A stretch of 64,000 nucleotides of DNA, from positions 2,056,939 through 2,120,938 of the forward strand of contig NZ_AP028056.1 of assembly GCF_030297015.1 (NCBI RefSeq), written 5' to 3'. Below the pieces are notes generated by a model. It was not told where the DNA came from. It was given only the letters and a program-made list of their open reading frames with translations, and did no database searches. A program made the position numbers and the translations under genes. The stretch is from Brooklawnia propionicigenes (GTDB lineage Bacteria; Actinomycetota; Actinomycetes; Propionibacteriales; Propionibacteriaceae). This document shows, piece by piece, positions 3,738-20,339 of this stretch. How positions within the stretch are numbered: the stretch's first letter is position 1; each line of letters begins with the position of its first letter.

Positions 3738-3855
3738 GAATCTCGACCTTCCTGACCGGGTGGGCATTGAGGGCAGTCTACGTGGACGCCGCAGTCGGCC
3801 GATCGTCCGGCCCCCGCCAGTCCCTCGCCCGAGGTCGGGGCAGTTCCCGCGCCGG

Positions 3856-3899
3856 AAATCTGAAGATGCGCCCGATATATCGGGCGCATCTTCAGATTT
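3856..3899. repeat. Perfect 44-bp palindrome
   Basis: Two arms of 22 bp are exact complements with no spacer. The left arm begins AAATCTGAAGATGCGCCCGA. It could extrude as a cruciform or form a hairpin in RNA. No second copy was found in the window. Confidence 0.85.
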
Positions 3900-3986
3900 G
3901 GGGCGCAAGAAGCCCGCGCTGTTGCGCAGCGGGCTCCCAACCCGCGGAGGGCACAGCCGCCCGCGGAGGGTGCGGCCACCGGCAGA

Positions 3987-4023
3987 GGGCACAGCGCGAC
4001 CTCCGCGCCGTCGCGTTGTGCCC
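3987..4023. repeat. 14-bp inverted repeat hairpin
   Basis: GGGCACAGCGCGAC and GTCGCGTTGTGCCC pair across a 9-base loop with one G-T pair. It lies 2 bp before the 45-bp family repeat. Confidence 0.65.
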
Positions 4024-4025
4024 GA

Positions 4026-4070
4026 CTTGGGTCTGGTTGTCTGCAGGCCCCGCGGATAACCCGACCCAAG
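4026..4070. repeat. 45-bp palindromic repeat, copy 2
   Basis: Same length and layout as copy 1: outer CTTGGGT / ACCCAAG ends, inner GGTT-TC / GGATAACC arms, and a short G+C-rich loop. More mismatches are present in the inner stem than in copies 1 and 3. It lies upstream of the DUF2277 gene rather than at a gene end, which argues against a simple terminator. Confidence 0.7.
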
Positions 4071-4224
4071 ATCAGCGGGTGCGGGGGATTTCCTGCCGCA
4101 GCCGGGGTCTGGAGGCGGATTTCGGGGTCGGAGACGGCACAACGAGGCGGCTTCTCGGTTCGCGCAAGTCGAGGCCGCGGAATGCGTCCTTGGATCAAGG
4201 GGCCGGCCGTGCAATCCTGGCGAC

Positions 4225-5860: not shown

Positions 5861-6759
5861 CTGACGGTGTCGATGTCCGGCAGCGCGACGAAGCGGGTGT
5901 CGGTCAGCGAGAAGGTCTGGCACACCTCACCACTGTCGATGGTCACCTGGTCACCGTCGAAGAAGATCTCGATCGCCAGCTTGACGGGGATGTCCCTGGC
6001 GAGGGCGAGGCAAGTTCGTGAGGAGATGCGGTGCGTATCGGACGATTCGCTCGCGATGATGATGTCGCCCGAGGTGGCCACGTGGGTCAGCCGGCCGGCC
6101 TCGTCGAAGCGGACGGAGTTCTGGTCGCCGGCCATGGTGAGGGCGTCCACGTCATAGGCCTGGACGAAGCCGATGGGCGTCCGGATCGCGATCGGCATGG
6201 CCGGTTCGAACGAAGCCAGCGCGCCGCTGCGATGCAGCCGCAGACCCGCGCGCGCCGGGAAGATGCCGGCCGGGGTCGTGAGCTTGACGGTCTCGCCCGA
6301 CCACAGGGTGAGGCTCTTGACCTCGCCGGTGGGGTAGAAGCGCACGTTGATGATCTTGGCGGTGACTTGGCCGAACGAGAACGAGAACGTGAAGGGCCTG
6401 GCCAGCTTCAGCTCTTCGGCCTCGGTCCATCCGAAACCAATGTGTCCGTTCAGCGGGAAGACTCCGTCCAGCTGACCGTCCTCGTAGAAGGTGACCAGCT
6501 CGGCGGGGATGGCGCCGAGGGGGGTGGGAATGAGGGTCTGGCTCTCCAGATTGATGACGCGGATCGCTCCGGAGGGGTAGAAGGACATCGACTTGGCGTC
6601 CTTGGTTCGGACGTCCGGCTCGGTGTAGTGCGGGATGAGATCCCCGCAGCTGGTGGGCACGACATTCAGCTTGTCGAGCTTGCACTCGGCCATGACCCCG
6701 TCCGGGTAGTCGCTGTGCTGGGTGACGCCGCGGAGTTCGATGCGTGTGGCGGTGAGCAT
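5809..6759 (-). CDS. MORN-like repeat protein with CxxxCxxCxxxC tail
   Basis: The 316-residue protein is unrecognised by name. It contains at least six spaced beta-hairpin repeats built around an aromatic-x-x-x-G core: SFYPSGAIRVI, TFYEDGQLDG, RFYPTGEVKSL, RLHRSGALASF, RFDEAGRLTHV and FFDGDQVTI. This resembles MORN or YwqK-type repeats. There is no signal peptide or membrane helix. The last 13 residues form a Cys-rich motif (Cx3Cx2Cx3C) that could bind a metal or cluster; this is inference. The tail coding sequence is duplicated downstream of the stop. The gene is monocistronic with a long 5' gap ending at an IS256 element. Confidence 0.7.
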   Translation of the reverse strand: MLTATRIELRGVTQHSDYPDGVMAECKLDKLNVVPTSCGDLIPHYTEPDVRTKDAKSMSFYPSGAIRVINLESQTLIPTPLGAIPAELVTFYEDGQLDGVFPLNGHIGFGWTEAEELKLARPFTFSFSFGQVTAKIINVRFYPTGEVKSLTLWSGETVKLTTPAGIFPARAGLRLHRSGALASFEPAMPIAIRTPIGFVQAYDVDALTMAGDQNSVRFDEAGRLTHVATSGDIIIASESSDTHRISSRTCLALARDIPVKLAIEIFFDGDQVTIDSGEVCQTFSLTDTRFVALPDIDTVSLGACDLGCDSCSLGCA

Positions 6760-7113
6760 TCAAGGTCCCTTTCCTGGCGTCAGCGATCCGGAGCGTTGCA
6801 GTGGTGCATCTGCCTGCTCTGATCTGCTGACCGATCCTCGGGTGTGTTGGACGGCGTGGCCGCGCTTCCACCGGTTACGCCGTCCACGCTAGGGCGGCGC
6901 CGATCCGCGAGAGTCCTTGTCCCATGGACTTCAAGAGGTTGTAACAAGCTAGATACCTGGGCGGAACGGTCGAGCCCGTGAGACCGCCCGGAAACCTTGG
7001 CTGTCACGCGAGTCTCTGCACTGAATATCTTGGGCTGTGCGATCGAGCCTGCGGAGCCATCCCGCCCCCAAGGACGATGATCCACCCCAAGGACGACGGT
7101 CAAGCCCGCTCAG
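6760..7113. other. Intergenic region left of IS256
   Basis: About 350 bp with no supported gene. It must hold the promoter of the repeat-protein gene on the minus strand. Short repeats of CCCCAAGGACGA occur near 7065-7100. Nothing else stands out. Confidence 0.5.
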
Positions 7114-8510
7114 TAGAGCCCCCTAGAGTGGTGTAGCCCCCACAGTGGCCGTGGCCGTCGATGACGGCAGGGCGGTCACCGTGGGATCCTTCGAGTTCAC
7201 CTACCAAAGCTCTCTCAAAGGAAATCAACCACGATGACCGCTCCTCACATTGTCGACCCCGCCCGCGTGCTGGGCAACCTGCTGACCGAAGCCTCTCCGG
7301 ACATGATGCGCCAGCTGCTGCAGAACATGATCAACGCCCTCCTCTCGGCCGATGCCGACGCCGTGTGCGGCGCCGAATGGGGACAGCCCTCAACCGAGCG
7401 GGTCGCGCAGCGCAACGGCTACCGCCACCGCCCGCTGGACACCCGCGTCGGCACCATCGACGTGGCCGTCCCGAAGCTGCGCTCCGGCAGCTACTTTCCC
7501 GAGTGGCTGCTGGAGCGCCGCAAACGAGCCGAAGCGGCCCTGATCACGGTGATCGCTGACTGCTACCTCGCCGGCGTCAGTACTCGTCGGATGGACAAAC
7601 TCGTCAAGACCCTGGGCATCGACGGCCTGTCGAAGTCACAGGTCTCACGCATGGCCGCCGACCTCGACGAACACGTAGCGCAGTTCCGGCACCGCCCCCT
7701 GGGCGAGGCCGGGCCGTTCACGTTTGTTGCAGCTGACGCGTTGACGATGAAGGTCCGCGAAGGCGGACGCGTGATCAACGCCGTGGTCCTCGTCGCCACC
7801 GGCGTCAACGGCGACGGACACCGCGAGGTCCTGGGCCTGCAGGTCGTCACCTCCGAGACCAAACCGGCGTGGAACACGTTCTTCGCCGATCTGGTGGCCC
7901 GCGGCCTTGCGGGGGTCCGACTGGTCACCAGCGATGCCCACGCCGGGCTGGTGGAGGCGATCGCGGCGAACCTGCCTGGCGCGTCCTGGCAGCGCTGCCG
8001 AACCCACTACGCCGCGAACCTGATGTCCGTGACCCCGAAGAGCATGTGGCCCGCGGTCAAAGCGATGCTCCATTCGGTCTATGACCAACCCGACAAAAAG
8101 TCGGTCCAGGCGCAGTTCGACCGTCTGCTCGACTACACCGCCGAGAAGCTACCCGAGGTTGCAGAGCACCTCGAAGCCGCCCGGGCAGACGTGCTCGCGT
8201 TCACCGGCTTCCCCAAGGACGTGTGGACCCAGATCTGGTCGAACAACCCCGCCGAACGCCTGAACCGTGAGATCCGCCGCCGCACCGACGCGGTCGGGAT
8301 CTTCCCCAACCGGGAAGCGATCATCCGCCTCGTCGGCGCTGTCTTGGCCGAGCAGACCGATGAGTGGGCAGAAGGGCGCCGCTACCTCGGCCTCGACGTC
8401 CTCGCACGATGCCGACTCAGCACCATCACCAACGCCGTTGAGGAGGTGACCGAACCCCTCGCCCTCACCGCCTAGACGAAGGAACCGCTACACCACTCCA
8501 CTGGACTTGA
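7114..8510 (+). mobile_element. IS256-family insertion sequence
   Basis: About 1.4 kb. Inverted ends share GAGTGGTGTAGC at 7126-7137 with its complement at 8487-8498, and partial matches extend about 10 bp outward, so the outer limits are approximate. One intact transposase gene fills the element. I could not find a clear 8-bp target duplication, so the ends may be decayed or mis-set. Confidence 0.8.
7234..8475 (+). CDS. IS256-family (mutator-type) transposase
   Basis: An intact 413-residue DDE transposase. The N-terminus has the helical DNA-binding part with RNGYRHRPLDTRVGTIDVAVPKLR, typical of IS256 enzymes. Catalytic Asp are in VAADALTMKV (near 170) and LVTSDAHAGL (near 232), with the C(2)H-like RCRTHYAANL segment, and the Glu in NNPAERLNREIRRR (near 344). 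It has the usual family length and no stop or frameshift, so it may be active. It is a simple one-gene IS lying just upstream of the CHAT pair. Confidence 0.95.
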   Translation: MTAPHIVDPARVLGNLLTEASPDMMRQLLQNMINALLSADADAVCGAEWGQPSTERVAQRNGYRHRPLDTRVGTIDVAVPKLRSGSYFPEWLLERRKRAEAALITVIADCYLAGVSTRRMDKLVKTLGIDGLSKSQVSRMAADLDEHVAQFRHRPLGEAGPFTFVAADALTMKVREGGRVINAVVLVATGVNGDGHREVLGLQVVTSETKPAWNTFFADLVARGLAGVRLVTSDAHAGLVEAIAANLPGASWQRCRTHYAANLMSVTPKSMWPAVKAMLHSVYDQPDKKSVQAQFDRLLDYTAEKLPEVAEHLEAARADVLAFTGFPKDVWTQIWSNNPAERLNREIRRRTDAVGIFPNREAIIRLVGAVLAEQTDEWAEGRRYLGLDVLARCRLSTITNAVEEVTEPLALTA

Positions 8511-8674
8511 CCCTGCGTGGACGTGTTTGGCTGTGCACTCGTCCGTGGATCATCTGTATGAATTCTGGCCGGTGACGTTGGTCAGCGGGCTGGTTGTTGG
8601 GTTGGCGGGGGACGTTAGCCCAGTCAACTAGCAGGAATGAGGCGCTCTCCGCCGCTGACGCGTACTCTGAGTCC

Positions 8675-9088
8675 ATGGAGATCGCTGGCATGCCGGATGG
8701 ATCGGCTGTCATCTTCGCGGACATTGAGGCACCTGCAGATGTGGTCGACGCCCCCCAGAATGCGGATGGAGTTCTCGGCCTTCCCGTGGAGGTCGCCACC
8801 TGGTTGGTCGATGTCGTGGCGGCCGGGGTGACGTTCGATGTGCTCAAGTTGATCATGGCCACGCTGATCCGGCGAGGCTGGCGAAAGTCATCTGCGTCGG
8901 CCACGGCAGAATCCGTCACTCGAGCGATCAACCTCTACCTTCGTTCCTGCGGGTATGTCGACATCGTGTTCCTCGAAGTGAGGCTGGTTTCTGGGCACGG
9001 GTGGGCCCTGAACGGAACGGCCAACGGTGTGTTGTTCCAAGGTCTGACCGATGAAACCGGCAGCATCATCCATGTCCGCGTCCAGTGA
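8675..9088 (+). CDS. Small protein paired with a CHAT protease
   Basis: A 137-residue protein when read from the ATG at 8675 (a TTG at 8594 would add 27 residues). It has an acidic start, a hydrophobic central segment (LPVEVATWLVDVVAAGVTF), a basic RRGWRK turn, then an alpha/beta C-terminal part rich in Val and Gly. I do not recognise the family. The next gene starts inside its last codons, so the two are translationally coupled. In actinobacterial conflict systems small constant proteins are often paired with caspase- or CHAT-type peptidases; a role as adaptor, regulator or substrate is inference. Confidence 0.6.
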   Translation: MEIAGMPDGSAVIFADIEAPADVVDAPQNADGVLGLPVEVATWLVDVVAAGVTFDVLKLIMATLIRRGWRKSSASATAESVTRAINLYLRSCGYVDIVFLEVRLVSGHGWALNGTANGVLFQGLTDETGSIIHVRVQ

Positions 9089-11723
9089 TTCCGCGCCCAC
9101 GCCCGCCGAGCTTGGCGCGGTTCAGATGGCATTGATCCGGCTGGACGAGATCTGTGAAACCGAACCTCAAAAAGTCATCAATGACACCGAAGAGCTTCTC
9201 CGAGTGTGTGCTTCTTGGACCCGAAGCGATGCGTACGCCTGGGTGCTAGCCCTGCGAGCCAAGGCTTTCCGATTCCTCGACAGACTTACCGCCGTGCTGG
9301 AGGCCGCCAGCATTGCGCTGAGGTCAATTGATGGGGACGCGTCGTCCGTCGCCGCGCATCTGCATCTTGAGTCTGGCATGGCGCTGAATCAATTCGGGCT
9401 TGCGCGTGAGGCTGTGGGCCATCTGCAGGATGCGGAGAGGATCTTCGCGCGCGCCGGAGACGATGCCGGTCGAGCGTGGGTCTTGGTCTCTCTTGCAGAG
9501 GCATATGCGGACGGCGGCGGAAGCGAGGACCCAGAACCTATCGCCAGACTCGCAATCGAGCTCGCTCAACAGTCGGGCGATGGGCGGGCTGAGCGTCGAG
9601 GATGGAAGCAACTCGCGGTGATATGCAGGTATCGGGGCCGGCCGGTCGACGCCCTCGAGGCAATCGGTCACGCGCTGGCAGGAAACGTCTTACCGCATGC
9701 CCGCGCCAACTATCTGCTGGAACTCGGACATCTTGAGGCATGGCTGGGCCACTATGCCGTCTCCGACGATGCGTACCAAGAAGCAGCCGTCATCTACGCT
9801 GAATACGGTGATCAACTTGGCCAGGCGAATATCGAACGCGCCCTGGCGAGCAATGCCTTGATCCTCGGACGCAATGCACAAGGTCGGACCCGATTGGACC
9901 GGGCCGCCGGACTCTACCGCCAGATCGGCAACCGAACTGGTCTCGGCTACGTACTTCGAGATCGTTGCCTGGTGCGCCTCACCGAGGGCGACAAGCAAGG
10001 GGCGGTCGAAGACGTTGAGGAGGCATTGGGGTGCTTTCGCGACGGGCCCGGGGTAATCGGTCTGGCCGGCACACTGCGAACCGCTGCCAAGATCCGCCAG
10101 CTTGTCGGGGACATCAAGGGGAGCCGGGAGGCGTTTGGGGAAGCCGAAGCGCTGACGCAAGACTCAGATAATCCTCTCGCCGAAGCAGGGCTCCAGCTGC
10201 TTCTCGCGGAGATCGGGGGGACTCTGGATGCGCGGCTCGCTGCTGGGATGAAGGCGGCAGGCCTTTACAAGAAGATGGGTATTCAAGACGGCGAAGCCTA
10301 CGCTCTTTCGCACATTGCCGGGCTTCACGCGGGCGAGGGTCGAGTTGATGACGCCGTTGTGGTTCTGCGCGAGAGCCAGCGGGTGTTGCGCACTGCACGC
10401 GCTCAGGTACTGGACCCGGGTCGCCGCGGAGATCACGATTTCGCCCTTCGTGATGTCACGACCAACCTACTAACAGCTTCGCAGCGTTTGGGGGATGCGG
10501 GGCGCGACGTATTCGCCGACCTTGTTCTTGATGAGGCCCCGCTTGGCCTGCGTCGCGCCGTCAGCGATCAGCAAGTCAGCGCAGCGACCAGAGACTTCAT
10601 CGCACGCATCCAGGGGATCTCGCGTTGCTCCGACGACTTGGCGTTCCCAAGGACGCATCTCCTGCAGCGACTTGGATCCAGCATCGCCTCCGTCGATCTT
10701 GAGGAGGGACCTGCTTGGTGTGGGTTCAACGACTTCGCTGCAGCCCATCCTCGTGACGCGATCCTCGCTGTCGCGTCACCAACAAGGAACCACGCGCTGC
10801 CTGTGGTCTGGAAGCTTCCGGGGAGCGAGCCTGAGGTCCAGCTCGTCGGACTGGATAGCGAGGACGTTTCGCAGATCAATGCACTCAGTCATGCATTCGA
10901 CGCGGCCCGGACGGACATCTTGTGGAGACCCGAGCTACTCGAATGGCAGTCCCGTCTTGCGGGTGTGCTGGTGCCACGGCCCGTCCAGACCTGGTTGGTC
11001 GGTTCGGGGCCGCGGTCGATCTCCGTGCTTCTGCCGCCTGTCTTGACGCATGTCCCGATCGAAGCACTGCTCCTGGATGATCAACCTATCGGCGTGAGAG
11101 CAGCGATCACCAGGATTGTTGTGCCCACGGCGACCAGGCTTGTGGAGCAGCTTGGCGAGACGGTGGCCTATTTCGATCCGGGCCTGGAGTGGAGCAGCGA
11201 GCGGCAGGTGCTGGCGAATGTGTATCAGGATGCCGAGGACTTCCGCGCAGAGCTAGGGCCCGGTCAGCTGATCATTGCCGCTTGCCATGGGGAGTCGGCG
11301 CTGCGTGCTGAGGGCTCTTTGGTTGCCGCTTCCGGAGAGCGGGTCCTCGACGCTATCGATCTGCTTGCGCAGCCGCTGTCGAATAGTGTGCTGGTGCTGG
11401 AGGCCTGTTTCGCGGGACGATACATGGGACCGCGGACGGGAGAGCCGCTGAACCTCGCAACCGTGAGCCTGCTGTCCGGGGCGGCGTCCGTGGTGGCGGG
11501 GCTGTTCGCGATACCAGCGAGTGATCGATGTACCGGCGTCATCGTGGCAGAGCTGGTAGCCACGCTCTTGGAGGGTTACCCTGCGGCGGAGGCTCTCCGC
11601 CGTGCGCGAGAGCGCTACTGGCGCGCGCGCCCAGAGGTAGTAGGGGTTCCTGGAAAGCCGGGCATGACTATGTGCAGTTCCGCGCCATGGGCCTGGGCTG
11701 GGTTGTGTGCCTATTCGCGATGA
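9051..11723 (+). CDS. TPR-CHAT caspase-like protease
   Basis: An 890-residue protein from ATG 9051 (883 from ATG 9072). Residues about 20-460 are tandem helical TPR-like repeats (for example REAVGHLQDAERIF and VSDDAYQEAAVIYAEYGD). A linker leads to a C-terminal CHAT domain from about 610, with PVLTHVPIEALLL and the His-Cys dyad: His746 in AACHGES and Cys786 in LEACFAG. CHAT domains are caspase-fold Cys proteases; with TPR sensors they act in regulated proteolysis, including defence. It overlaps the small upstream gene by 38 bp. No signal peptide is seen. Target and trigger are unknown. Confidence 0.85.
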   Translation: MKPAASSMSASSDSAPTPAELGAVQMALIRLDEICETEPQKVINDTEELLRVCASWTRSDAYAWVLALRAKAFRFLDRLTAVLEAASIALRSIDGDASSVAAHLHLESGMALNQFGLAREAVGHLQDAERIFARAGDDAGRAWVLVSLAEAYADGGGSEDPEPIARLAIELAQQSGDGRAERRGWKQLAVICRYRGRPVDALEAIGHALAGNVLPHARANYLLELGHLEAWLGHYAVSDDAYQEAAVIYAEYGDQLGQANIERALASNALILGRNAQGRTRLDRAAGLYRQIGNRTGLGYVLRDRCLVRLTEGDKQGAVEDVEEALGCFRDGPGVIGLAGTLRTAAKIRQLVGDIKGSREAFGEAEALTQDSDNPLAEAGLQLLLAEIGGTLDARLAAGMKAAGLYKKMGIQDGEAYALSHIAGLHAGEGRVDDAVVVLRESQRVLRTARAQVLDPGRRGDHDFALRDVTTNLLTASQRLGDAGRDVFADLVLDEAPLGLRRAVSDQQVSAATRDFIARIQGISRCSDDLAFPRTHLLQRLGSSIASVDLEEGPAWCGFNDFAAAHPRDAILAVASPTRNHALPVVWKLPGSEPEVQLVGLDSEDVSQINALSHAFDAARTDILWRPELLEWQSRLAGVLVPRPVQTWLVGSGPRSISVLLPPVLTHVPIEALLLDDQPIGVRAAITRIVVPTATRLVEQLGETVAYFDPGLEWSSERQVLANVYQDAEDFRAELGPGQLIIAACHGESALRAEGSLVAASGERVLDAIDLLAQPLSNSVLVLEACFAGRYMGPRTGEPLNLATVSLLSGAASVVAGLFAIPASDRCTGVIVAELVATLLEGYPAAEALRRARERYWRARPEVVGVPGKPGMTMCSSAPWAWAGLCAYSR

Positions 11724-11793
11724 CGTTGCAGGCTATCGATGGACGCTCATCCGGGGACGTTGCGGCGGGGACTGACGTGCGTGACTTGGCATT

Positions 11794-12398
11794 GCGGCTG
11801 ATGGGTCAGCCGGGGAGCGGGCTTGCTTGTTGTTGATCTGCTGGTGCACGGCGACAGTCGTGGCTGGTTCAAGGAGAACTGGCAGCGGGCCAAGATGGTT
11901 GCCCTCGGGCTGCCGGATTTTCGGCCGGTTCAGCAGAATATGTCGTTCAACGCCGAGGCAGGGGTGACCCGTGGACTTCATGCCGAACCGTGGGACAAGT
12001 TGATCAGCCTGGCCAAGGGCCGCATCTTTGGTGCGCGGGTTGATCCGCGGCCGGGGAGACGTCTGGGGCGTCGTTCACTCTTGAGATGGGGAGAAGGCGG
12101 TCTTTGTGCCGCGAGGTGTCGCCAACGGTTACCAAGTGCTTGAACCAGATACGGCGTATTCCTATCTGGTCAATGAGCACTGGTCGCCACAGGCTCGGGC
12201 TTCTTACGCCTATCTGAATCTCGCTGACGAGACTGTTGGTATTGACTGGCCGATTCCGCTGTCGGAGGCGATCTTGTCTGATGCGGATCTTGCGCACCCG
12301 CGTTTGGCAGCGGTGGCTCCGATGCAGCCACGCCGGACGGTGATTGTGGGGGCGGGTGGTCAGCTTGGCCGGGCATTGCGTGAAGCGCTGCCGGGCAC
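11794..12398 (+). pseudogene. Decayed rmlB'-rmlC-rmlD' copy
   Basis: This is a degraded duplicate of the intact locus at 15.7-16.6 kb. About 26 bp (11794-11819) match rmlB around LRLMGQP, joined directly to the rmlC start (LVVDLLVHGDSRGWFKENW). The epimerase frame breaks near 12045-12100, with small deletions against the intact copy, then resumes at VPRGVANGYQ. It continues through the linker into the first residues of the RmlD part (VIVGAGGQLGRALREALPG) before joining a different gene near 12398. It cannot make an active enzyme. Confidence 0.85.
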
Positions 12399-12703
12399 CT
12401 CACTTCGTCCTGGCCACTGGGACCGGCATCACGGTGCGGAAGTTCATTGAGATTGCATTCAGTCACGCGGGGCTGAACTGGGAAGATCACGTGCGTTTCG
12501 ACGAGCGCTATCTGCGTCCCACTGAGGTGGATGCTCTGATCGGTGATCCGTCCAAGGCCAATGATCTGCTGGGCTGGAAGGCGACGATTCACGGTCCGGA
12601 GTTGGCGAGGCTGATGGTCGATGCTGACATTGAGGCGTTGAAGCATGCGGGGTCTGCGTGGATTGACAGGGTTTCACTTCCCTCTTGGCAGGTGGCTGCA
12701 TAA
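12399..12703 (+). pseudogene. gmd: 3' fragment of GDP-mannose 4,6-dehydratase gene
   Basis: About 100 codons remain, matching the C-terminus of GDP-mannose dehydratase: FVLATGTGITVRKFIEIAF, then RYLRPTEVDALIGDPSKAN and LLGWK. The 5' two thirds are gone, replaced by the rml duplicate. The stop overlaps the start of the GDP-fucose synthase gene (TAATG), the normal gmd-fcl arrangement, so the loss happened in place. Confidence 0.85.
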
Positions 12704-13680
12704 TGACGACCGATTCCGTGACATACACGCCTGAAGAACTCGACCGGGACGCCACGTTCTACGTGGCCGGGCATCGCGGGCTGGTAGGTTCCGCGATCTG
12801 GCGCAGGCTCGCGCGTGCCGGGTTCAACAACCTGGTGGGCCGGACGTCCAAAGAGCTTGATCTGAAGCAGCGTGAGAACGTGTTTGAGTTCTTCGCTGCT
12901 ACGAAACCGCGCTATGTGGTGCTTGCGGCCGCGAAGGTGGGCGGCATTCTGGCGAACAGCACGTACCCGGTTGACTTCCTGTCGGACAATCTGCGCATCC
13001 AGTTGAATGTGCTGGATGCGGCGTTGGCCAACGACGTGGAGCGGGTGTTGTTCCTCGGGTCGTCGTGCATCTACCCGAAGTTCGCTGAGCAGCCGATTCG
13101 TGAAGATGCTCTGCTGACTGGCTATCTGGAGCCGACGAATGATGCGTATGCGATTGCGAAGATCGCGGGCATCTTGCAGGTGCAGGCGGTGCGTCGGCAG
13201 TACGGGCTGCCGTGGATCAGTGCGATGCCGACCAATCTGTATGGCCCGAATGACAACTTCTCGCCCAAGGGGTCGCATGTGCTGCCGGCGTTGATTCGCC
13301 GTTACGACGAGGCAGCGCGTAGCGGTGCGGAGTCGGTGACGAATTGGGGGACCGGCACGCCGCGGCGTGAGTTCCTGCATTCCGATGACATGGCGGATGC
13401 GTGCTTCTATCTGATGGAGCATTACGACGGCCCGCAGCAGGTCAACGTTGGTACCGGAAGTGACGTGACTATCCGTGAGATCGCTGAGACGATCGCGCAG
13501 GTCACGGGCTTCACGGGGGAGACCTTGTGGGATACGAGCAAGCCTGATGGGACTCCGCAGAAGCTGCTGGATGTGTCCAAGCTGAAGAACGAGGGCTGGA
13601 CTGCCCAGATCTCCTTGGAGGAGGGCGTTCGGCGCACGGTGGACTGGTATCACGAGCACATCTTCGACATTCGGCAGTAG
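12703..13680 (+). CDS. fcl: GDP-L-fucose synthase
   Basis: The 325-residue enzyme, read from ATG 12703, would epimerise and reduce GDP-4-keto-6-deoxymannose to GDP-L-fucose with NADPH. It has the Rossmann start VAGHRGLVGSAIWRRL, the catalytic Ser-Ser-Cys region FLGSSCIYPKFAEQP, and the YxxxK pair in NDAYAIAKIAG. Later parts MPTNLYGPNDNF and RREFLHSDDMADA are typical of the family. It sits directly behind a broken gmd, so its substrate may no longer be made unless another gmd exists outside the window. Confidence 0.93.
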   Translation: MTTDSVTYTPEELDRDATFYVAGHRGLVGSAIWRRLARAGFNNLVGRTSKELDLKQRENVFEFFAATKPRYVVLAAAKVGGILANSTYPVDFLSDNLRIQLNVLDAALANDVERVLFLGSSCIYPKFAEQPIREDALLTGYLEPTNDAYAIAKIAGILQVQAVRRQYGLPWISAMPTNLYGPNDNFSPKGSHVLPALIRRYDEAARSGAESVTNWGTGTPRREFLHSDDMADACFYLMEHYDGPQQVNVGTGSDVTIREIAETIAQVTGFTGETLWDTSKPDGTPQKLLDVSKLKNEGWTAQISLEEGVRRTVDWYHEHIFDIRQ

Positions 13681-14024: not shown

Positions 14025-14894
14025 TCAGATCCGGTGTTCCAGTAGACCAAGAAGATAGGTTCCGTAGCCGGAGCTCTTGAGCCGTTCTGCCCGGGCCCGC
14101 AGATCCTGGCTTGAGAGGAAGCCTTTCCGCCACGCAACTTCCTCAGGGCATCCGATCTGTAGGCCTTGTCGTGCCTGGATGGTGCGCACGAAGTTGTTCG
14201 CGTCGTTCAGCGCATCAAATGTGCCCGTGTCTAGCCATGCCGTGCCGCGAGGGAGAACCTCGACATGCAGGCGTCCTTGGTTCATGTAGGCGCGGTTGAC
14301 ATCCGTGATCTCGTACTCGCCGCGTGGAGAAGGCGTGAGGGCGCTGGCGATCTCGACCACTTGCTCGTCATAGAAGTAGAGCCCTGGAATCGCATAGTTT
14401 GAACGCGGGCTCTTTGGTTTCTCTTCAAGAGAGACAGCACGATGATCCTGATCGAACTCGACGACGCCGTAGGCAGTCGGATTGGCAACCCAATAGGCGA
14501 AGACTGCTGCACCGTCCACGTCGCGGTATTTGGTCAGTTGCTGGCCGAGCCCAGGTCCGTAGAAGATGTTGTCTCCGAGAACAAGCGCGCTCTTGTGTCC
14601 GCTCACGAAGTCAGCACCGATAGTGAAGGCCTGCGCTAGGCCCTTGGGCTCGGGCTGCGTGGCATACGTGATGGAGATGCCGAACTGCGAGCCGTCCTGC
14701 AGTAGCCGTCGGAAGGCTTCGGCTTCGTGAGGGGTCGTGATCACGAGCACTTCTCTGATGCCGGCGATCATGAGGGTTGACAAGGGGTAGTAGATCATCG
14801 GCTTGTCGTAGACAGGCACAAGTTGCTTGGAAGTTGCTTGCGTGATGGGGTGAAGGCGGGTGCCCGCGCCGCCCGCCAGAATGATTCCGCGCAT
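14025..14894 (-). CDS. rmlA: Glucose-1-phosphate thymidylyltransferase
   Basis: The 289-residue enzyme joins dTTP and glucose-1-phosphate to dTDP-glucose, the first step to dTDP-L-rhamnose. It opens with the nucleotide-binding signature [16 protein letters not shown], followed by [26 protein letters not shown] with the metal Asp, and the sugar-site region [22 protein letters not shown]. Full length and intact. It diverges from rmlB across a 94-bp gap that must carry both promoters. Confidence 0.96.
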
Positions 14895-14979
14895 GTGCGT
14901 ATCCTGTCATACGCTGCGGCGCAGGCTTTGAGGGGCCCTGCGCGGGGCGGGTGCTGGCCGCAGTAAGGCGGCATACTAG

Positions 14980-15990
<1,011 letters not shown>

Positions 15991-15994
15991 ATTC

Positions 15995-17380
15995 ATGAGT
16001 GATCTCGCGATTCAGACCACTCCCATCCAGGGCCTGCTCGTTGTCGATCTGCCGGTGCACGGCGACAGTCGCGGCTGGTTCAAGGAGAACTGGCAGCGGG
16101 AAAAGATGGTTGCCCTCGGGCTGCCGGATTTTCGGCCGGTTCAGCAGAACATGTCGTTCAACGCCGAGGCAGGGGTGACCCGTGGGCTTCACGCCGAACC
16201 GTGGGACAAGTTGATCGGCCTGGCCAGGGGCCGCATCTTTGGTGCGTGGGTTGATCTGCGCCCGGGGGAGACGTTTGGGACGTCCTTCACTCTTGAGATG
16301 GGCCCGGAGAAGGCGGTCTTCGTGCCGCGAGGTGTCGCCAACGGTTACCAGGCGCTCGAACCAGATACTGCGTATTCCTATTTGGTCAATGAGCACTGGT
16401 CGCCACAGGCTCGGGCTTCGTACACCTATCTGAATCTCGCTGACGAGACGGTTGGTATTGACTGGCCGATTCCGCTGTCGGAGGCGATCTTGTCTGATGC
16501 GGATCTTGCGCACCCGCGTTTGGCAGCGGTGGCTCCGATGCAGCCACGCCGGACGGTGATTGTGGGGGCGGGTGGTCAGCTTGGCCTTGCGCTGCGGGAC
16601 GCTCTGCCGGGTGCTGTTGCGCTGAGTCGTGCGGAGCTTGATATCACCGACCGTGCCGCGGTTCAGTCGTTCGATTGGCAAGGTGTGGGCGTAATCGTCA
16701 ATGCTGCTGCCTGGACAGCTGTGGATGCTGCTGAAACTGGGGAGGGGCGTCGTGGAGCCTGGGCGGTGAACGTTGATGGGGTTAGGAACCTCGTCGATGT
16801 TGCAGCCAGGAACCGCATCACCCTTGTTCAGGTCTCCAGTGACTATGTGTTTGATGGTGTGGCCGAGATGCATGCCGAGGATGAGCCGTTCAGTCCGTTG
16901 AGCGTCTATGGGGCAACCAAGGCGGCTGGTGATTCGGTGGTGATGACGCTGCCTGATTATTACGTCGTGCGTACGAGCTGGGTGATTGGCGATGGCAAGA
17001 ACTTCGTGCGAACGATGGAGAGTCTCGCGGCCAGGGGAGTCTCACCCCGGGTTGTGAACGACCAGTTTGGCCGGCTCACGTTCGCGGCTGACTTGGCTGC
17101 TGGGATCGCGCATCTGCTGGCTGTGAGACCTGCGGTCGGCACCTACAACCTGACAAATGATGGACCGGTCACGTCGTGGTTCGAGATCGCGCGTGATGTC
17201 TTTGCGCTGTCTGGGCGAGATCCGGCGGATGTCGCTCCGCAGAGCACGGCCGAGTTTGGGGCGGGGAAGGTCGTGGCGCCGCGACCTGTTCATAGTGGGC
17301 TGGGGTTGGACAAGATCAAGTCCGTCGGGTTTGTGCCGCGGGATGCGGGTGGGGCGTTGCGGGAGTACCTGGGGGCGTGA
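15995..17380 (+). CDS. rmlCD: Fused dTDP-4-dehydrorhamnose 3,5-epimerase and reductase
   Basis: A 461-residue bifunctional protein. Residues about 1-185 are RmlC-like (GDSRGWFKENW, GVTRGLHAEPWDKL with the catalytic His, VPRGVANGYQ). From about 187 a RmlD-like reductase begins (RRTVIVGAGGQLGLAL), with VSSDYVFDG and the YxxxK pair in PLSVYGATKAAGD. It would complete dTDP-L-rhamnose synthesis from the RmlB product. Such fusions are known in some actinobacteria. The RmlC half was copied to 11.8-12.4 kb and decayed there. Confidence 0.93.
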   Translation: MSDLAIQTTPIQGLLVVDLPVHGDSRGWFKENWQREKMVALGLPDFRPVQQNMSFNAEAGVTRGLHAEPWDKLIGLARGRIFGAWVDLRPGETFGTSFTLEMGPEKAVFVPRGVANGYQALEPDTAYSYLVNEHWSPQARASYTYLNLADETVGIDWPIPLSEAILSDADLAHPRLAAVAPMQPRRTVIVGAGGQLGLALRDALPGAVALSRAELDITDRAAVQSFDWQGVGVIVNAAAWTAVDAAETGEGRRGAWAVNVDGVRNLVDVAARNRITLVQVSSDYVFDGVAEMHAEDEPFSPLSVYGATKAAGDSVVMTLPDYYVVRTSWVIGDGKNFVRTMESLAARGVSPRVVNDQFGRLTFAADLAAGIAHLLAVRPAVGTYNLTNDGPVTSWFEIARDVFALSGRDPADVAPQSTAEFGAGKVVAPRPVHSGLGLDKIKSVGFVPRDAGGALREYLGA

Positions 17381-18821: not shown

Positions 18822-20339
18822 ATGCCAAGCCCTGCCGCACAGCGGCCAGCCGACGCACCTAGAGCCAACGCATCCAGAGCCAGCTCTGCCACCCACGCCG
18901 GTGCGAAGCCCCGCACTACTGCAGCCCGCGCGGCAGCGAAAGTCACCCCAGATGTGGCCCGTAAGAGAGATCGGCGAGAGAGCGGTAGAGCCAAGGGCGA
19001 GGGTGACGTACGTTCCGAGTCCTCTCGCGATTGCGACCGAATTACCTACTCCTGGGCTTGGCGGCGTCTTGATGGGGTCACTCAGGTGCTCACCCCCTAT
19101 AGCGACTACCCGACTTGGCACAATCGGCTGACGCATTCCGAGAAAGTAGCGCAGGTATCAAGGACGATTGCTGCAACTGTTTTACAACGCGAACGCTCGG
19201 CATTGATTCGAAAGCTCGGAGGGATAGATGTCTACGTGTGCGAGGCTGCCGGCCTGGCTCACGATTTGGGCCATCCGCCTTTTGGCCATATAGGCGAGGA
19301 AACGCTAGATCAGATCGCTCGAGAGGAGTGGCATCTAGATGACGGCTTTGAGGGCAACGCGCAGACGATGCGAATAGTTACAACCGGAAATGTTCGATCG
19401 ATTGAATATTTGGGTCTCGATTTAACATCCGCCACTCTCGCGGCCATTGCCAAGTATCCCTGGGTTAGAGCTAAACGCCACAAGAATCATGACGATCAAA
19501 TCGACAACGATTCGGACTATCGCAAGAAATGGAGCAAATTCAGCTTTTATAATAGTCAAGCTTACCTGTTGCCACGTGTCAGAGAGTTTGCGACCGGCAT
19601 TGGCGCGGGGACGCAGACCGTGGAAGCCTCCATCATGGATATTGCTGATGACATCACATATGCGATTCATGATCTTGAAGATTTCTACTTATCCGGTCTT
19701 CTAGACAGCTCGCTCGTGGTTGAGGAACTGCGCCACCTGGTTTCGGAAAAGCCCCCCCAGTCGCCGAGCCCTATTGAGAAGCTTGAGTCCAGTCTTTCGC
19801 AGAATAATGTGGAGTACTACGACCACAGCATGTTCTTAGAGGCTGCAGATTATGTCCGGTCCAAACTGACCGACGAATTCCCGCGCCTGACTAGCCCAAA
19901 AGTGGAGCCGACAGTCCGTCAAGCCACCTCTGATTTAATTGGCAGGTATATTCTGGCGGTTAAACTGTCGGAGCAGCCCTTGTGGGTCGGGGGACCGCAC
20001 TTGTCGGTCGATAGGCGACAGTGGCATGAGCTTCAGATATTCAAGGCCATCACAATGAACTACGTAATCTCAAGATCCGATATTGCGGTGATTCAGCGCG
20101 GGCAGGCTGCGGCACTCAAGACACTTGCTGGACTACTTGATAAGTGGATAAACGACTCAAAGGATCGTAGGCGCGCACCGAGGCGTCTTCAGGATTTGTA
20201 CGCGCTTGCGCAAACAGAGGAAGAAAGGAAACGGTGCGTGTTGGACTACCTCTGCTCGCTGACTGACCTCCAGTGCCTTTCTTTGCTGGATGCATTACTT
20301 GGCTCTAGGGCACCTCGAGTTGGGCTCCCGTTCATGTAG
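18822..20339 (+). CDS. dGTPase-like HD-domain phosphohydrolase
   Basis: A 505-residue protein. Residues 1-65 are low-complexity Ala/Arg; the enzyme begins with SSRDCDRITYSWAWRRLDGVTQVL, the classic dGTPase opening. HD metal ligands are visible: His105 in NRLTHSEKV, His147-Asp148 in LAHDLGHPPFGH, and a later Asp in IMDIADDITYAIHD. Members hydrolyse dNTPs to nucleoside plus triphosphate, and some dGTPases protect bacteria against phage by draining dNTPs. The 3' half is clearly lower in G+C than its neighbours, suggesting transfer. It is flanked by an integrase scar and an IS1634-like relic. A defence role is inference. Confidence 0.85.
   Translation: MPSPAAQRPADAPRANASRASSATHAGAKPRTTAARAAAKVTPDVARKRDRRESGRAKGEGDVRSESSRDCDRITYSWAWRRLDGVTQVLTPYSDYPTWHNRLTHSEKVAQVSRTIAATVLQRERSALIRKLGGIDVYVCEAAGLAHDLGHPPFGHIGEETLDQIAREEWHLDDGFEGNAQTMRIVTTGNVRSIEYLGLDLTSATLAAIAKYPWVRAKRHKNHDDQIDNDSDYRKKWSKFSFYNSQAYLLPRVREFATGIGAGTQTVEASIMDIADDITYAIHDLEDFYLSGLLDSSLVVEELRHLVSEKPPQSPSPIEKLESSLSQNNVEYYDHSMFLEAADYVRSKLTDEFPRLTSPKVEPTVRQATSDLIGRYILAVKLSEQPLWVGGPHLSVDRRQWHELQIFKAITMNYVISRSDIAVIQRGQAAALKTLAGLLDKWINDSKDRRRAPRRLQDLYALAQTEEERKRCVLDYLCSLTDLQCLSLLDALLGSRAPRVGLPFM

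Follow-up and report, generated by a model that had tools for sequence, protein, structure and literature searches.

Within a 64,000-nucleotide stretch of Brooklawnia propionicigenes DNA (contig NZ_AP028056.1, positions 2,056,939 to 2,120,938; hereafter, the window), a gene encoding a TPR-CHAT protein, a putative cysteine protease, is directly preceded and overlapped by a small gene whose 137-aa product matches no known family. The same pair recurs, with its overlap, in every intact full-length copy of this protease lineage that was recovered, supporting the small gene as a probable dedicated partner of this CHAT lineage. The best reading of the pair is a rare variant of the arrangement "small cognate partner plus TPR-CHAT protease". 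The explanation that we tentatively prefer is an accessory two-gene module in which the small protein would serve as a bound regulator or sensor of the TPR-CHAT protease.

Architecture of the TPR-CHAT protease

Both open reading frames proposed in a sequence-only reading of this DNA were recovered on the forward strand, one of 137 residues (8675-9088) and one of 890 residues (9051-11723). The gene overlap proposed in that reading is also real and conserved, but its length of 38 bp, counted from the ATG at 9051, had to be revised to 17 bp: comparison with homologues places the conserved protease start at Met8 (ATG 9072), the start common to the window and to genome G967. The features of the region are as follows.

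7113-8511, + strand: IS256-family element just upstream of the pair (transposase 7234-8475; Transposase_mut, 2.7e-132)
8675-9088, + strand: small partner gene, 137 aa, without known family
9072-9088, + strand: overlap of the small gene and the TPR-CHAT gene, 17 bp (also 17 bp in G967; 4-bp ATGA in G208)
9072-11723, + strand: TPR-CHAT gene; 883 aa counted from the conserved start, 890 aa if ATG 9051 is used
9228-10400, + strand: helical region of TPR-like character with TPR_12 matches, residues 60-450 in the 890-aa protein (approximate bounds, chosen by us)
11190-11708, + strand: CHAT domain match, residues 714-886 (PF12770, 5.4e-12)
11819-12395, + strand: incomplete, decayed copy of the rmlC portion of rmlCD (93.3% to 16030-16611 over 582 columns)
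12344-12703, + strand: GDP-mannose 4,6-dehydratase gene fragment (GDP_Man_Dehyd, 7.1e-15, covering just positions 241-332 of a 332-position profile)

CHAT proteases are kin of caspases and separase and, to our knowledge, the trigger or substrate is known for few of them. The TPR-like repeats and the CHAT core that had been recognized by eye were both detected by Pfam (TPR_12, 1.7e-7; CHAT, 5.4e-12), with PF12770 bit scores of 46.2 in the window protein (curated cut-off 24), 51 in its G967 homologue and 38.2 in its G208 homologue. The His746-Cys786 dyad (codons 11286-11288 and 11406-11408), previously described as intact, is invariant in the alignment of the three proteins. The window protein carries the dyad expected of the CHAT family and is a putative cysteine protease. 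Identity to the G967 and G208 proteins, respectively, was 62% and 42% in the TPR region, 46% and 34% in the middle region, and 65% and 45% in the CHAT region, so that the TPR region and the catalytic domain show much the same degree of conservation. The NG86 dN/dS values of the protease gene were 0.36/2.20 (window-G967), 0.67/2.86 (window-G208) and 0.68/1.40 (G967-G208), with dS near saturation. The window genome contains a single CHAT gene (Pfam model, E 1e-10 or better), no second copy of the window protease was found in it, and the protease profile gave no match at E 0.01 among PDB sequences.

The small protein

Homologues of the small protein were located at locus L009 (100% identity; the G005 contig), at L135 (8129-8536, 51%; G967) and at L010 (3367-2957, 37-40%; G208). 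The corresponding NG86 dN/dS values, in which dS is likewise near saturation, were 0.39/1.20 (window-G967), 0.66/1.74 (window-G208) and 0.66/2.33 (G967-G208); dN is lower than dS in all three distinct comparisons, which points to a coding frame under purifying selection. Identity to G967 and G208, respectively, was 30% and 38% over residues 1-35, 60% and 42% over residues 36-70, and 58% and 39% over residues 71-137. The higher identity to G967 of residues 36-137 (58-60%) relative to residues 1-35 (30%), together with the conservation of the protease's TPR region, would agree with a conserved binding interface.

The small protein had not been recognized from any named system in the sequence-only reading, and the searches agree: no significant match was obtained with Pfam (best E 0.21), PADLOC, PHROGs (best 0.13), PDB sequences (best 1.2), Foldseek or the EACC1 proteins considered below, nor with NCBIfam, for which only the window protein served as query. 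A single-sequence structure model of low confidence (pLDDT 47.9) contained three helices and four strands, and the predicted order of secondary-structure elements is a hint only; the Foldseek search with this model found nothing at E 0.001 or better. The protein is probably soluble. The best 19-residue hydropathy values were 2.0 (window), 1.45 (G967) and 1.37 (G208), compared with 2.2 and 1.8 for two EACC1 proteins, and the small-protein segments contain charged residues. Just 5' of the small gene lies a separate short frame (window approximately 8513-8631; L009:3-233) that appears membrane-like by eye.

Pairing of the two genes

The small gene lies directly upstream of, and overlaps, the protease gene in 4/4 intact full-length copies (the window, the G005 contig, G967 and G208), among which only the three divergent pairs of the window, G967 and G208 are clearly independent. 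This supports the proposal that the small gene is a dedicated partner of this protease lineage. CHAT genes of this kind occurring without the small gene, and a small frame devoid of coding conservation, had been named beforehand as arguments against such a partnership; all four copies are paired, and dN is below dS, but G952 retains a broken protease with no small gene detected. The co-occurrence survey in actinobacteria that had been suggested gave the same picture: the small family accompanies the four intact copies of this lineage and is absent from all 59 other sampled CHAT loci, the only member found among the 60 loci being L113, which is G208 itself.

The gene overlap suggests translational coupling of the two genes. 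An all-against-all blastp comparison of the window, L135, and L113 with L137 revealed only two genes common to the three contexts, namely those of the pair; the remaining matches either link at most two contexts or are shadow frames within the pair. Since no third gene is common to the three contexts, the pair looks complete.

Distribution of the pair

The copy closest to that of the window lies on a contig of the metagenome-assembled genome G005 (protease 99% and small protein 100% identical; also JALHFX010000133.1, Propionibacterium sp. MAG). Divergent intact pairs are present in G967, from another genus of the same family (small protein 51%, protease 58% identity), and in G208, from another order of the same class (37-40% and 39%). 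In G952, only broken protease pieces are left (L136:6738-7179, - strand), and the small gene is not detectable.

Among genomes of the class, the window protease (P0002) matched 2/394 at E 1e-20 (best 2 candidates per genome scored), and a profile of the CHAT part matched 2/296 at 1e-15 (best 6 candidates per genome scored). At the level of the order, a full-length protease profile matched 32/391 genomes at 1e-6 (best 2 candidates per genome scored), comprising 3 full-length matches, the decayed copy of G952 and 28 partial matches scoring at most 45.5 bits. The small-protein profile detected one genome in each search: the window's own in the phylum (1/396; best 10 candidates per genome scored), G967 in its genus (1/39) and G208 in its order (1/13). 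When the single small-protein sequence was searched against relatives, 7/196 genomes gave a match at E 0.01, two of them real (the window's own and G005) and five weak; four of the weak matches (L003, L004, L005 and L007, with L006 left out) proved to lie inside unrelated ORFs. Significant matches in the small-protein searches (196, 13, 396 and 39 genomes) thus correspond to the known pairs only; the genome samples of the searches overlap each other.

In mobile elements, the protease, the only query used for phages, had no match there, and no full homologue was found in viral contigs. Plasmids likewise contained no full homologue; three partial matches to P0002 were confined to the TPR region (24-27% identity), and neither the G208 protease nor the window and G967 small proteins matched any plasmid. 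The pair is therefore rare and patchily distributed in a few actinobacteria. No description of it was found in open-licence papers.

Genomic context and accessory status

As originally noted, the pair lies between an IS256-type element (Transposase_mut, 2.7e-132, upstream) and a decayed duplication, here the rmlC copy downstream. The element has imperfect end repeats (19/26), and its bounds are approximate, the match to genome G1087 stopping at 7112 and that to L009 starting at 8513; it is absent 5' of the pair in the G005 contig. The intact rmlCD gene, in which the dTDP_sugar_isom match is found, is located at 15995-17380. Between the pair and an epimerase-family gene that is intact (12685-13680) lie the decayed rmlC and dehydratase fragments (11819-12703), which point to recombination in the polysaccharide locus. 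The pair sits within a dTDP-rhamnose/GDP-fucose region containing IS and duplicated fragments.

Genome G1087, listed as the same species, gave no match to the full-length protease profile, and the pair is therefore regarded as accessory; given an assembly of about 50 contigs with 6% contamination, the evidence for its absence is good, not absolute. Identity between G1087 and the window is 97-98% as far as 7112, where the IS starts, and 94% from 14044 on another contig, so that the stretch from 7113 to approximately 14043 appears variable. Over 8513-12188, the G005 contig and the window are 98.9% identical, whereas other G005 contigs reach 78% in ugd (1321-2486) and 77% over 14062-17351. Two explanations fit this match equally well: it could reflect a recent transfer or a misbinned contig of the window's species. 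The G005 copy is weak evidence for transfer because the pair-bearing contig is short (3791 bases), its MAG has 4% contamination, and the identity is like the 97-98% seen within the species.

In G967, only 55 bp separate the small gene from the end of an upstream integrase-core transposase gene, which we take to be IS3-like. Downstream of the pair follow integrase-core, partial tyrosine-recombinase and Schlafen AlbA_2 genes. The G208 pair is located at a contig end, its downstream side falling outside the contig. Approximately 1.5 kb upstream of it, a DUF4365 gene begins on the other strand (PADLOC Aga_REase-PNTD1-PNTD2, 3e-20), and the nearest genes that we recognized by eye as presumably housekeeping (argS-like and others) start about 15 kb from the pair. 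A 269-aa ORF (L113:3471-4280, - strand) lies about 100 bp upstream of the G208 small gene on the same strand; its assignment by eye, from a motif, as a nucleotide cyclase was discarded, no Pfam, PADLOC or significant PDB match being obtained.

Small genes at other actinobacterial CHAT loci

A survey of CHAT genes was positive in 72/148 genomes, with 130 matches, and 60 of these loci (L056-L115), selected for the length of the ORF and so as to cover a range of genomes, were examined; five of them (L061, L094, L103, L105 and L107) are cut by a contig end, L061 having almost nothing upstream. A different small-protein family, which we named after its DPVP...VTSWV motif, was found near the CHAT gene in 31/60 loci (E < 1e-3), using a profile seeded on four of those sequences (example loci L058, L063, L064, L065, L066 and L068). 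Its gene is on the CHAT strand in 23 of the 31 loci; in 13, it lies close upstream, ending within 450 nt of where the CHAT open frame starts. The family has no strong Pfam match, with a weak CarboxypepD_reg match in one of the two proteins run. The window small protein was tried as a member and rejected (hhalign probability 0.1%). The presence of a different small family beside CHAT genes implies that an unrelated small protein at CHAT occurs more than once. In one locus, L066, an upstream Sigma70_r2 gene was confirmed, and a pathway linking sigma factor, small protein and CHAT protease is possible in the DPVP...VTSWV loci.

Comparison with known systems

Neither window protein matched a system model of PADLOC-DB 2.0.0, and four homologous proteins gave a single weak, generic TPR match (E 2e-4). 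A close likeness in features is to Csx29, the TPR-CHAT protein of type III-E CRISPR Craspase/CASP, which is kept inactive, is allosterically activated and cleaves Csx30, an operon partner that inhibits a sigma factor (PMC10028731). Like the window protease, Csx29 combines TPR with a C-terminal CHAT domain, a His-Cys dyad and a partner gene, the His-Cys spacing being 43 in Csx29 (H615/C658; PMC10028731) and 40 in the window protein. The window partner, in contrast, is a 137-aa protein that matches no model searched, and the likeness is one of features. A Craspase locus would, in addition, contain Cas7-11, Csx30, Csx31 and CASP-sigma.

EACC1 systems, as described by Kaur et al. 2020 (PMC7159879), consist of a 5' single-TM protein and a 3' caspase protein, and EACC2 and further adaptors are described in PMC8195603. 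In EACC1 systems as in the window pair, an actinobacterial caspase-superfamily gene is preceded by a small gene on its 5' side. The domain order of the window protein is reversed, TPR preceding a CHAT domain at residues 714-886 of 890, whereas the EACC1 caspase domain is N-terminal, with a variable effector at the C-terminus.

Possible function of the pair

The pair looks like a candidate stress or anti-invader switch. The overlapping genes would probably be translated together and the two proteins would probably form a complex, with the TPR arm holding the small protein. Once bound, the small protein may keep the caspase-like site latent and/or sense a trigger. Phage, invading DNA or stress, as the trigger, would lead to alignment of the site, which would then cut the partner or a cell protein and result in growth arrest or an altered response. 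Csx29, inactive until activated and then cutting Csx30 (PMC10028731), was counted as a precedent for such a bound-regulator module.

The same precedent also serves a substrate model, since Csx29 cuts its operon partner, a sigma-factor inhibitor (PMC10028731). In this model, resembling Craspase, the small protein would be the cognate substrate, and its cleavage would release an active fragment or free a third protein. The different small family near 31/60 CHAT genes, beside a Sigma70_r2 gene in one checked locus, agrees with such a role, and the variable N-terminal 35 residues of the small protein could hold the cut site. Against it, no third gene recurs across the three contexts compared, the G208 pair lying at a contig end, and the core of the small protein is conserved as if it were a folded unit; overall, we regard the substrate model as somewhat unlikely, and a bound regulator or sensor as likelier than a pure substrate. 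A more specific proposal, which we put forward as speculative and rather improbable, is that the small protein is an inhibitor-sensor of new fold dedicated to a caspase-like TPR-CHAT protease. The pair would then represent a new type of conflict module, and the small protein one of several unrelated partners occupying the same slot beside actinobacterial CHAT proteases, where a swap of partners would rewire the response. The lack of a PADLOC match for the window proteins counts against the preferred module, as do the low-confidence fold of the small protein and the conservation of the TPR region, contrary to what would be expected of a diversifying phage sensor. The strongly conserved TPR and the absence of matches to known defence models would instead suit a physiological, non-conflict regulator of envelope, stress or development, whose patchiness would reflect a polysaccharide locus with IS elements, as the dTDP-rhamnose/GDP-fucose surroundings of the window pair suggest. 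The pairs of G967 and G208, however, lie in other contexts, the former with a transposase gene 55 bp upstream and a partial tyrosine-recombinase gene downstream, the latter about 15 kb from the nearest housekeeping genes presumed by eye, and we consider this explanation quite unlikely.

Membership of the EACC1 two-gene membrane conflict system is largely refuted and, in our estimate, highly improbable. The outline is the same, in that the 5' small gene encodes a hydrophobic stretch that includes glycine and the 3' gene belongs to the caspase superfamily, but the small protein has no EACC1 Pfam match and an hhalign profile-profile probability of 0.1% against six EACC1 sequences, PF19953 (EACC1) was not found in genomes G000 or G208, and the protease domain of the window protein is C-terminal. 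Even less credible is a chance adjacency in which the small frame is no gene. The small ORF does lack a significant family match, yet the protein, start, overlap and pairing are conserved in three lineages with dN below dS; since each frame is preserved at the protein level in distant genomes, both genes are real and their adjacency is not chance, and this explanation is refuted.

Being compact, apparently complete with two genes and shared by different lineages, the pair makes partner binding, latency and substrate directly testable. Together with the unrelated small family near 31/60 sampled actinobacterial CHAT genes, it suggests that CHAT proteases may generally be wired by the exchange of partners.

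Other features of the window

An Rfam scan of 6500-13000 returned nothing usable. At 18822-20339, in a lower-GC stretch, the window encodes an HD-domain protein with a match to PADLOC's dGTPase model (7.5e-76); this protein may be defence-related or ordinary. A short repeat at approximately 3804-4089 has 39 match rows in G1087, which span about 40-107 bases each and often fall at the same place on both strands; it looks like a dispersed palindromic repeat.
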